A DNA stretch of 61,667 bases from NCBI GenBank assembly GCA_944341075.1, contig CALVLV010000011.1, forward strand, positions 1 through 61,667. Direction: 5' to 3'. A program made the translations under genes and the position numbers. The notes under the pieces are model-generated. The model made no database searches. It was not told where the DNA came from and was given only the letters and a program-made list of their open reading frames with translations. Below, one piece after another: positions 44,430-48,259 of the stretch. Each line of letters starts with the position of its first letter. The first letter of the stretch is position 1. The DNA comes from an uncultured Clostridia bacterium. Lineage in GTDB: Bacteria > Bacillota > Clostridia > Christensenellales > Borkfalkiaceae.

Positions 44430-44471
44430 AGGGCGCGGTTTGCGCCACGGCATATGCAACCGCCCTTTTTT
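44430..44471 (+). terminator. Expression-platform terminator of the ZTP riboswitch
   Basis: GGGCGCGGTTTGC (44431-44443) pairs imperfectly with GCAACCGCCC (44456-44465), followed by TTTTTT. The 3' arm could also pair with GGGCGGT (44481-44487). Ligand binding upstream would be expected to disturb this hairpin. Confidence 0.75.
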
Positions 44472-44528
44472 CACCCCTTCGGGCGGTCGGCGCCCGTGCA
44501 GCTAACATGCGGCGCAAGGTTTTGGTTT

Positions 44529-45260
44529 ATGGTCGGAAGAATACACTCGTTTGAAAGTTTCGGCACGGTCGACGGGCCGGGTATAAGGTTTGTGGTGTTC
44601 ATGCAGGGCTGCCCCTTAAGGTGCAGGTACTGCCACAACCCCGACAGCTGGGAGGTAAACGGCGGCACAGAATACACCCCCGAACAGGTGGCGCAGAACG
44701 CGCTCCGCTACAGGCACTACTGGCGCAGGGGCGGCGGCATTACGGTATCGGGCGGCGAACCGCTGTTGCAGATACAATTCGTGACCGAACTCTTCCGCAT
44801 TTTAAAGGGGGAGGGCGTGCACTGCACGGCGGATACCTCGGGCATTACCTTCAACCCCGAAAGCGAGCGTAGCTTGCAGCTGCATTCCGAACTTATAAAG
44901 TATACCGACCTGTTCCTTCTGGACATAAAGCACATCGACCCCGACGGCTGCCGCAAACTTACGGGGGCGGACAACAAAAACGAACTTGCCTTTGCACGCT
45001 TCCTTTCGCAAAATGGCAAGGACATGTGGATAAGGCAGGTGCTGGTGCCCGGCATAACCGACAGCGAGGAGTACCTTGCCCGCACCCGCGCCTTCATTGA
45101 TTCGCTCGCCACGGTCAGGCGGGTAGAGGTGCTTCCCTACCACACCATGGGCGAGGTAAAGTATAAAAAGATGGGTATAGACTACCCGCTTGCAGGCGTA
45201 AAGCCGCCCGAAAGGGAGAGCGTGGAGCGCGCAAAGCGTATCCTCGGCGCGGAGTACTGA
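44529..45260 (+). CDS. pflA: Pyruvate formate-lyase activating enzyme
   Basis: Radical-SAM enzyme that makes the glycyl radical on pyruvate formate-lyase. The 243-residue protein has FESFGTVDGPGIRFVVF and CPLRCRYCHNPDSW (CxxxCxxC cluster ligands; near residue 29), TVSGGEPLLQ for SAM binding and the family end VLPYHTMGEVKYKKMGIDYPL. It is upstream of the lyase genes rather than downstream as in E. coli. The ATG at 44529 has only AAGG upstream; longer in-frame extension lies in the riboswitch platform and is rejected. A 210-base gap with dispersed repeats follows. Confidence 0.95.
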   Translation: MVGRIHSFESFGTVDGPGIRFVVFMQGCPLRCRYCHNPDSWEVNGGTEYTPEQVAQNALRYRHYWRRGGGITVSGGEPLLQIQFVTELFRILKGEGVHCTADTSGITFNPESERSLQLHSELIKYTDLFLLDIKHIDPDGCRKLTGADNKNELAFARFLSQNGKDMWIRQVLVPGITDSEEYLARTRAFIDSLATVRRVEVLPYHTMGEVKYKKMGIDYPLAGVKPPERESVERAKRILGAEY

Positions 45261-45470: not shown

Positions 45471-45776
45471 ATGTTTGATAAAACATTTACAGATAACGGC
45501 CTGTGCCTTGTTGAAATAGGCGGTTCGTCCTGCGCGGGGTGCCATCAGCTTATGCCCTCCGCCAGGCAGGCGGCAGCTTCCGCAGGCATCCCCTTTTACT
45601 ACTTCGACGCCGAAGAGGCGGGGGAACTTATACAAAAGTGGCAGGTAAAAAGCCTTCCGTCGCTGTTCATTGCAGACGGCGGGCAGCCGTTTGCCGAGGC
45701 GCACGGCTATCAGCCGCAGGAAATACTTGAAATATGGTTAGATTATAAAATACAGGAGCATAAAAATGGCAAATGA
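45471..45776 (+). CDS. Thioredoxin-like protein in the pfl operon
   Basis: 101 residues with a compact thioredoxin fold: CAGC active-site motif ([13 protein letters not shown], Cys20 and Cys23), then [13 protein letters not shown] with the cis-Pro after Leu, as in thioredoxins. The CAGC pair replaces CGPC and may change redox potential. It sits between pflA and the lyase gene and overlaps the lyase start by 11 bases, so production is coupled. A redox role for the oxygen-sensitive PFL cysteines, PflA cluster or glycyl-radical partner is inferred from position. Confidence 0.8.
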
Positions 45777-47805
45777 CATCAACCGCCCCGAATGGGAGGG
45801 CTTTGTTCCCGGCAAGTGGAACGACGGCGAAGTTAACGTGCGCGACTTTATTCAGCGCAACTATACCCCTTACGAGGGCGACGGCAGCTTTCTTGCACCC
45901 GCAACAGAGGCCACAAAAAAGCTCTGGGACAAGGTTATGCAGCTCTCTGCCGAAGAACGCAAGGCGGGCGGCGTTTTAAAGGCAGACACCTCTGTCGTCT
46001 CCACGCTCACCTCGCACGGCGCGGGTTATATAGATAAAGACCTTGAAAAGATAGTCGGCCTGCAGACTGACGAGCCCTTCAAGCGTTCGCTGCAGCCCTT
46101 CGGCGGCATAAAGATGGCCGAACAGGCGCTCAACATGTACGGCTATGAAATAGACCCCGATGTAAAGGAGATATTCACCAAGTACCGCAAAACGCACAAC
46201 GACGGCGTGTACGACGTATACACCCCCGAAATGCGCCTTGCCCGCCGCGCGCACATACTCACAGGCCTGCCCGATACCTACGGCCGCGGCCGCATAGTGG
46301 GCGACTACCGCCGCGTGGCGCTGTACGGCACCGACTACCTTGTTGCCTGCAAGGAGCGCGACAAACTCAACTTAAGCGGCGACATGACGCCCGACAAGGT
46401 GCGCGACAGAGAGGAACTTGCCGACCAGATAAAGGCGCTTAAAAACCTTGCCAAAATGGCCGCCGAATACGGCATGGATATCACCCGCCCCGCCGCCAAC
46501 GCGCAGGAGGCCGTGCAGTGGCTGTACTTCGGCTACCTCGGCGCGGTAAAGGAGCAGAACGGCGCGGCAATGTCCATCGGCCGCAACTCTACCTTCCTCG
46601 ACATATATATCGAACGCGACTTAAAGCGCGGCGTGCTCACCGAAGAGCAGGCGCAGGAGATAATCGACCACTTCGTAATGAAACTGCGCATAGTAAAATT
46701 CATGCGCATAAAGGAATATAACGAACTGTTCTCCGGCGACCCCACCTGGGTCACCGAATCCATCGGCGGCATGGGAGTGGACGGCAGAACGCTGGTCACC
46801 AAAAACTCATTCCGCGTACTGCATACGCTTGAAAACCTCGGCCCCGCGCCCGAACCCAACCTCACCGTGCTGTGGTCTACCAACCTGCCCATAAACTTCA
46901 AAAGGTACTGCGCGCAGGTATCCATATCCACTTCGGCAATACAGTACGAAAACGACGACATGATGCGCGCGGAGATGGGCGACGACTACTGCATAGCCTG
47001 CTGCGTAAGCAGTATGCGCGTGGGCAAGGATATGCAGTTCTTCGGCGCAAGGGCAAACCTTGCAAAGTGCCTTTTATACGCGCTCAACGGCGGCACCGAC
47101 GAGCTGCTAAAGGACAGGGCCACGGGCAAGCCTCTTCAGGTTTCGCCCAGGTTCATGCCCGTGCTCGGCGACGGCCCCCTGGACTTCGACGACGTAATGC
47201 AAAAGCTTGAACAGATGATGGACTGGCTTGCGGGCCTGTATGTGAATACCCTCAACGTAATTCACTACATGCACGATAAGTACTGCTACGAGGCGCTTGA
47301 AATGGCGCTGCACGACAGTAAAGTTCACCGCTTTTTTGCAACGGGCGTTGCCGGCCTTTCGTGCGCGGCAGACTCGCTTTCGGCAATAAAATATGCCAAA
47401 GTATACCCCATCCGCAACCAGGACGGCATAATCACCGACTTCAGAACGGAGGGCGACTACCCCAAATACGGCAACAACGACGACCGCGTAGACAAGCTTG
47501 CCGTGTGGCTGGTAAAGACCTTTATGACCAAGATAAAGAGCCACACCACCTACCGCGACAGCGAACCCACCATGAGCGTGCTCACCATAACCTCAAACGT
47601 GGTTTACGGCAAAAACACCGGCAACACGCCCGATGGCAGAAGGGCAGGCCAGCCGCTTGCGCCCGGCGCAAACCCCATGCACGGCCGCGATACAAACGGC
47701 GCGCTCGCCTCGCTCGAATCGGTTGCAAAACTTCCCTACGAATACTCGCGCGACGGCATTTCAAACACCTTCTCGGTAACGCCCAATTCGCTCGGCAAAA
47801 ATTAA
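45766..47805 (+). CDS. pflB: Pyruvate formate-lyase catalytic subunit lacking the glycyl-radical domain
   Basis: PFL splits pyruvate with CoA into acetyl-CoA and formate. The 679-residue protein aligns from its start to the family segment [16 protein letters not shown], then stops. Active-site cysteines are present in [15 protein letters not shown] (Cys412-Cys413). [19 protein letters not shown] and [15 protein letters not shown] are canonical. The C-terminal ~80 residues with the radical glycine are missing but are encoded by the next gene; 679 plus 80 equals the usual ~760. CAGGAG precedes the ATG. The stop codon is followed by repeat sequence, not by a frameshifted continuation. Confidence 0.93.
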
Positions 47806-47936
47806 ATTGCACGGCACATATGCCGCAACTATCGCGTAGTATTCAGTTATGCGGGCGCCGCCCTTATCCGTAATTTATATGGGCACAATACGGGCGCATC
47901 CGCACCCGTAATTCCGGCCGAACGACAGCCCTTACC

Positions 47937-47975
47937 TGTCATTCCGACCGGGCGACAGCGAGCGGAGGAATCTCA
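47937..47975. repeat. Half copy of the GTCATT-CGAC repeat between the PFL subunit genes
   Basis: CTGTCATTCCGACCGGGCGA and AGCGGAGGAATCTCAAAAA match the dispersed family. With a GGCACATATGCCGCAAC motif at 47814-47830, repeats occupy much of the 211-base space between the catalytic and radical subunits. Confidence 0.75.
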
Positions 47976-48016
47976 AAAACATTCAAACTTCAAACAGAAA
48001 TTAAAGGAGTAATATT

Positions 48017-48259
48017 ATGGCAGCAAAATCAGACAGAGTTGAAAACCTTGTAAACATGATAGACGCATACGTTGAAGACGGCGGTCATCACCTCAACGTC
48101 AACGTGTTCAACCGCGATACGCTCCTCGATGCTCAGGCTCATCCCGAAAAGTATCCCCAGCTCACGGTAAGGGTTTCGGGCTATGCCGTAAACTTCAACA
48201 AGCTCACCAAAGAGCAACAGGACGACGTAATCCACAGAACCATACACGAATCTTTATGA
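48017..48259 (+). CDS. grcA: Autonomous glycyl-radical subunit of pyruvate formate-lyase (GrcA/YfiD-like)
   Basis: 80-residue protein equal to the C-terminal domain of PFL. It has [21 protein letters not shown], then [19 protein letters not shown] and [19 protein letters not shown]; Gly55 in RVSGYAV is the radical site. AAAGGAG is 8 bases before the ATG. In E. coli GrcA is a spare part for oxygen-damaged full-length PFL; here the catalytic subunit has no own radical domain, so this protein should be essential for activity. A terminator follows. Confidence 0.93.

Follow-up and report, generated by a model that had tools for sequence, protein, structure and literature searches.

Pyruvate formate-lyase (PFL) is familiar as a glycyl radical enzyme encoded as a single chain. 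The 61,667-nucleotide stretch of DNA from an uncultured Clostridia bacterium analysed here (the window) instead carries two neighbouring open reading frames (ORFs), one resembling the catalytic part of PFL and the other the part that bears the radical glycine. This immediately raises the question of what the pair represents: two genes for one enzyme, the debris of a broken gene, an enzyme with a spare part beside it, or an artefact. Judged from the sequence comparisons below, the two genes very probably encode a single enzyme, an obligately two-subunit PFL.

Organisation of the locus

The genes concerned are collected in Table 1. The thioredoxin-like ORF and the start of the large-chain ORF overlap by 11 bases, and the pflA gene is the sole match above the TIGR02493 cut-off in a genome-wide profile search. 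From their strand and spacing, the large- and small-chain genes probably form one operon, and no terminator-like site was seen on the plus strand of the gap between them (47806-48016). A weak promoter-like match on the plus strand just before the small gene (47989-48018) means that the latter might also be transcribed alone; such sites numbered two in 900 bases, against 0.6 expected.

Table 1. Features of the PFL locus in the window
Feature	Position	Strand	Evidence and remarks
pflA, PFL-activating radical SAM enzyme	44454..45260	+	TIGR02493, 300.8 bits (cut-off 231.75)
Thioredoxin-like gene	45471..45776	+	PF00085, 36.3 bits; between pflA and the large-chain gene
PFL catalytic (large) chain, 679 aa	45766..47805	+	TIGR01255, profile 1-662 of 744
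Intergenic gap, 211 bases	47806..48016		Dispersed repeats; ribosome binding site of the small gene
Glycyl-radical (small) subunit, 80 aa, putative GrcA3 family	48017..48259	+	NF038360; PF01228, profile 50-106

The original prediction gave the large ORF its correct length, but the chain ends one residue (N) beyond the K at which it had been placed. ORFs and profile coverage agree with its proposal that the downstream gene supplies the missing C-terminus, including the motif RVSGYAV with the radical glycine, Gly55. The ribosome binding site proposed for the small gene is also present, as AAGGAG lying 7 bases 5' of the ATG.

Two chains, probably one enzyme

The two chains share out the Pfam Gly_radical model, of which positions 2-48 fall on the large chain and 50-106 on the small. 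Against TIGR01255, the large chain by itself passes the curated cut-off (1084.2 bits against 994.2) and the small chain matches positions 664-744 of 744. When mapped on Escherichia coli PflB, the large chain corresponds to residues up to 677 and the small to 681-759; C418 and C419 become large-chain Cys412 and Cys413, and the radical glycine G734 becomes small-chain Gly55. These two cysteines are identical in the large chain, as are R176, R435, W333, F327 and A272, which we take to be substrate residues of PFL. The complementary coverage of Pfam, TIGR01255 and PflB, and the retention of the catalytic residues checked, uphold the earlier claim that the two ORFs together equal one full PFL. The companion claim, that the catalytic chain has no radical domain in cis, is likewise borne out: the large chain stops at profile position 662, and the radical glycine is not in the same chain as the catalytic core. 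The break point is the linker preceding the glycyl-radical domain. In fused PFLs this linker, if measured from the xLG glycine up to the domain, has a length of 8 residues in all 99 parsable proteins (of 111), and the two chains separate exactly at its position.

The small protein scores 158.0 bits with the NCBIfam model NF038360, whose cut-off is 158, and 156.8 bits in the genome search, so that it seems to belong to this family or to lie at its edge. Its structural model has a helix at residues 3-20 (mean pLDDT 72) and is matched by Foldseek to YfiD (6owr) with an E-value of 7.9e-05. Residues 22-29, where the barrel-completing strand should begin, have pLDDT below 50, which fits the absence of a partner but proves nothing.

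The family score is one reason to ask whether the small gene might encode a GrcA-type spare part for a fused PFL, the adjoining large chain being a different or inactive enzyme. Another is that E. coli GrcA acts in trans on PFL, according to the accessible text of PMC8683613 and PMC12338860. Every checked catalytic residue is, however, kept in the large chain, and no fused PFL to repair was found in the source genome, a draft (G000) of 44 contigs and 94.73% completeness. This has one PF02901 match, and its PF01228 matches are the two halves described here and an NrdD with an NrdG-like neighbour; these profile searches thus found no second or fused PFL in the 94.7% complete draft. The two checks suggested with the original prediction gave, for another full-length PFL, nothing in this assembly and, for a PFL C-terminus elsewhere, only the NrdD. 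A second pflB could be absent from an assembly of 94.7% completeness. The genome also encodes a pyruvate:ferredoxin oxidoreductase, so PFL need not be essential.

Comparison with the known spare part points the same way. Like E. coli YfiD/GrcA, the window's small chain is a small separate protein with a radical-glycine domain. In YfiD, however, the N-terminal half (60 residues) is disordered, and the protein repairs fused PFL (PMC8683613, accessible text), whereas the window's small chain begins with the helix of the domain itself and is paired with a chain that has no radical domain to lose. With Gly55 in a chain of 80 residues there is no YfiD-like disordered half, and the conserved NL has only a few residues before it in 43 aligned small chains. 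As to function, no fused PFL that a GrcA/YfiD-like protein could repair in the same cell was found in the 94.7% complete genome. The contrast drawn originally with GrcA of E. coli, which is only a repair part there, holds by anatomy; the accompanying proposal, that radical transfer always runs between subunits, would follow if the pair works like fused PFL. T4 Y06I is a further protein of the YfiD/GrcA spare-part type, named in a reference of PMC12338860 (accessible text).

Split pairs in other genomes

A scan with one genome per species yielded 393 relatives, of which the best 80 were retained. Among these best 80 of 393 loci, 71 have a small gene downstream, six are fused and three have no small gene in the available DNA; in two of the three (L052 and L037) the contig ends 146 and 213 bases past the match, respectively, and in the third (L079) 5 kb lack the gene. 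Together with genome samples and one viral contig, the retained loci provided 129 split pairs, four of them the window itself and 121 with distinct small-gene DNA. The small gene is on the same strand as the large and downstream of it, with gaps of -38 to 438 bases (median 84).

The small genes have the marks of independent translation. A Shine-Dalgarno sequence of at least five bases at the proper spacing precedes 117 of the 121, a figure somewhat flattered by the choice of start codons partly by Shine-Dalgarno sequence; the controls gave 7% for shuffled upstream pieces and 52 of 2871 for ATGs within 900 bases upstream of the large-gene end. Substitution patterns show both genes to be under purifying selection, pN/pS against the six nearest loci (L005-L010) being 0.064-0.109 for the small gene and 0.078-0.124 for the large. 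Against four farther loci, where silent sites are near saturation, the values are 0.12-0.26 and 0.18-0.27.

Production of one full-length protein by stop read-through or programmed frameshifting might be entertained from the 39 of 121 pairs in which the small gene is in the frame of the large chain. This is just the third expected by chance, and neither the range of gap lengths nor the existence of distant and reversed genes (see below) accords with the idea; it was rejected on the frame counts and the distant genes, and we consider it scarcely credible. That the window was wrongly sequenced or assembled, for which the draft nature of the source might speak, deserves equally little credence: a single indel cannot join the ORFs across 211 bases, near relatives are broken alike with other gap lengths, and isolate records also contain split genes.

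Those isolate records are of Ruminococcus sp. Marseille-P6503, with one split pair, and R. flavefaciens MA2007, with two (G873 C10 and C3); no fused PFL was found in either. In a sample of 101 genomes from the window's family, counting PFLs above the cut-off and leaving aside fragments below it, 55 genomes have a PFL, split in 31, fused in 23 and cut by a contig end in one. The comparison of relatives for fused and split forms that had been proposed originally thus finds both. At class level (391 genomes), the GrcA3 model was matched at E = 1e-25 or better in 212 genomes, and a stand-alone small ORF of 78-106 residues occurs, among the matches listed, in at least 23. All 23 listed stand directly behind a PFL that lacks the domain and, among the matches listed, 21 of the 23 genomes have no second GrcA3 match at E = 1e-25. 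Both these results tell against a spare part, a reading that can draw on the other two genomes (G838 and G735), where a fused PFL does accompany the split pair; overall we regard it as improbable. In the phylum sample (398 genomes), 118 have a PFL above the cut-off, and only those of the source genome and G222 end before the domain. Split PFL occurs in Clostridia, in Ruminococcus isolates and in Gastranaerophilales, and is far commoner than one window could show.

Dispersed repeats between the genes

The original prediction placed members of two dispersed repeat families between the genes. They are real: with 40 of 115 candidates scored, at least 32 other places in the genome match within gap bases 103-177, and at least three within the first 32 bases of the gap. 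The accompanying suggestion that repeat insertion split an ancestral gene does not survive comparison. Three relatives whose large chains are 92-93% identical to the window's (L005, L006 and L008) are split without any 12-base word of the repeat in the gap and, throughout the 129 pairs, no such word of the longer repeat was found between the genes save in the window's own four copies. Repeat insertion as cause of the split was rejected on this ground. Since no other locus examined shares such a word, the repeat probably came into the window's gap after the split.

The same observations bear on whether the locus is simply broken, that is, a fused pfl interrupted by a stop or a repeat insertion and heading for loss. 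The repeats in the gap and the fused relatives in the same family (23 of 55) are what this would lead one to expect. Opposed to it are not only the restriction of the repeat word to the window but also the recurrence of the same break in 121 distinct pairs across deep branches, the ribosome sites before 117 of 121 small genes, the purifying selection on both genes and the fact that the pair is the only PFL found in the genome. We therefore consider a broken gene highly improbable, and a functional two-gene enzyme the better reading.

Genes apart or in reverse order

In two genomes the small gene does not adjoin the large. The large genes of L037 (Gastranaerophilales) and L079, whose products are 94% identical, have no small gene beside them, and the sole GrcA3 match in each genome is carried by a different contig (39.7 and 44.7 kb long), about 7.5 kb in from an end. 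Even were the contigs adjoining, the small gene would be at least about 7 kb from the large. In both genomes the distant small gene lies back to back with a gene for a Crp-type regulator (L285 6818-7986; L286 7348-8530), which suggests separate control. In the genome of L052, which has a split-type large chain, no GrcA3 match was found in the 1.3 Mb searched; this genome is probably incomplete.

Two viral contigs, L146 (1956-7270) and L156 (530-5808), share a near-identical block in the order nrdD, nrdG, small gene, large gene, the last of which carries the same frameshift in both. As kilobases separate the two genes in two genomes, and two viral contigs have them in reverse order, the chains must meet in trans, and read-through is excluded as a general mechanism.

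Small genes are not rare in phage sequences, with 1539 of 50,697 phage records matching the small protein. We found the gene on 12 viral contigs (L145-L156); in the available DNA, nrdD is present on five (L146, L148, L149, L154 and L156) and a PFL large gene is absent from nine. A DNA ligase gene, a ThyX-like gene and a topoisomerase II gene lie near the L146 block. L145 has the bacterial gene order and bacterial-looking neighbours (PriA, an ECF transporter), and may be misfiled as viral.

Clades and evolutionary history

The split PFLs fall into two groups. In clade A, which contains the window's family, large chains end within a few residues of the LGK motif; in clade B, comprising Ruminococcus, Gastranaerophilales and other Clostridia, they have a longer tail. 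All 51 long-tailed chains whose completeness allowed their use in the tree belong to clade B. After the motif, F.G[DEGS] occurs in 66 of 70 long-tailed large chains and in none of 51 short-tailed ones; conservation of this kind suggests that the long tail is a docking element acquired along with the split. Cysteines occur in 25 of the 70 long tails, some as GCC motifs (e.g. L040 and L078). The clades also differ in gene order: pflA precedes the large gene at 26 of 27 clade-A loci (L005-L084), the last having no upstream DNA, while at 26 of 53 clade-B loci it is downstream. A thioredoxin-like gene is upstream at 19 of 21 split clade-A loci (L005-L084) and at none of the six fused ones, an association that may merely reflect descent, the fused loci being close kin of each other.

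Trees were made from a 61-row alignment of core plus domain (LG+G4) and from a 100-row alignment of the core. In the 61-row tree, clades A and B and the fused L213, L214 and L222 form a clade (support 100/98) among fused PFLs, a nesting that makes fusion the likely ancestral state. Within clade A, fused members are interspersed among split ones at several places and the tree needs seven changes; fission, fusion or gene exchange thus happened several times. A single clade of all split rows was rejected (p-AU 1.3e-05 with 61 rows, 0.0123 with 100). The constraints of A and B as one clade (p-AU 0.496 and 0.891) and of the clade-A split rows as one clade (0.113 and 0.725) were not rejected, although for the 100-row values it should be borne in mind that the free search did not give the best tree, two constrained trees scoring higher. 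The trees agree both with one split followed by several re-fusions and with several separate splits. Retention of the 8-residue linker in all 12 fused clade-A members leans towards retained fusions.

How a two-subunit PFL may work

By homology, the large chain would bear the substrate site and the cysteine pair, and the small chain the radical glycine. The genes would be translated separately, each from its own ribosome binding site, and the small chain would dock into the large at the position that the C-terminal domain occupies in a fused PFL. PflA, encoded just upstream, would then install the radical on Gly55, from which, if known PFL chemistry applies, it would move to the two large-chain cysteines for catalysis. 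The E. coli radical passes from G734 to C419 of the same subunit and not across the dimer (PMC12338860, accessible text), so the small chain should occupy the active site of its own large chain. YfiD is proof that a separate domain is able to do so.

Work on E. coli PFL cut after residue 695 hints at what such an arrangement needs. According to the accessible text of PMC8683613, binding of YfiD to the cut enzyme was not measurable and 32-fold less radical was formed, yet once activated it was fully active. The poor binding indicates that a working split needs docking features; sequence analysis identified none on the window's short-tailed large chain. The natural break lies about 15 residues before the E. 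coli cut, so that the helix with which the domain opens stays with the small chain; as modelled, this helix may be the means of binding the large chain.

A likely benefit is that oxygen would cleave the 80-residue chain only, which could be replaced without remaking the 679-residue chain. A bolder idea is that the small subunit serves as a radical cartridge that can be exchanged, being produced in excess or separately controlled, activated and, following damage by oxygen, replaced in the large chain, and that phages bring their own, thereby sustaining host formate for phage DNA synthesis. Class III ribonucleotide reductase uses formate as its reductant (PMC12288474, accessible text), and a phage cartridge beside nrdD and nrdG would, if the idea is right, keep the host PFL supplying this compound. 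We offer this tentatively and think it on balance doubtful.

Relation to known proteins and significance

The window's chains are each 65% identical to the corresponding part of fused E. coli PflB (PDB 1H16), with which they have the Cys-Cys pair, the radical-glycine domain and a nearby PflA gene in common; the difference is that there one chain does what is here divided between two. Parts of this picture are already on record. NF038360 is named 'autonomous glycyl radical cofactor GrcA3', which implies a spare part, whereas its stand-alone ORFs instead follow a domain-less PFL (23 of 23 listed, class sample); the name appears to mislabel an enzyme subunit. In the PDB, the recent chains 38la and 38lb, both named 'Formate acetyltransferase' and of 687 and 739 residues, look from their sequences like split large chains already solved. 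The former ends one residue past ...SLGKE, like split large chains, and the latter has a tail like those of long-tailed chains (GNVMFGECDM plus about 43 residues). Three clade-B queries match 38lb with 1134, 1129 and 1114 bits, against 1022 for the window, and 38la with 1152, 1127 and 1112 bits, against 1114, two of the three being higher. Alternatively, these entries could be cut constructs. No small chain besides YfiD was found among the PDB matches. Given these two entries, others probably already have split-type PFLs in hand.

No description of a natural split PFL was found in the open-licence literature, where passing mentions could be missed, nor in the accessible parts of PMC11528403, PMC8683613, PMC5476646, PMC9239101, PMC13252398, PMC12288474 and PMC12338860. 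With the GrcA3 family and the two PDB entries already known, the novelty of split PFL is real but partial. In the literature examined, as far as its accessible parts go, a radical domain on a separate chain has so far been studied only as a repair of damaged or mutated enzyme. The pairs described here would represent a natural split-enzyme experiment, run repeatedly in gut bacteria. Such a two-part system lends itself to asking whether activation by PflA precedes or follows docking, how tight the binding of the radical domain must be, and whether oxygen tolerance is gained from having a radical part that can be replaced.
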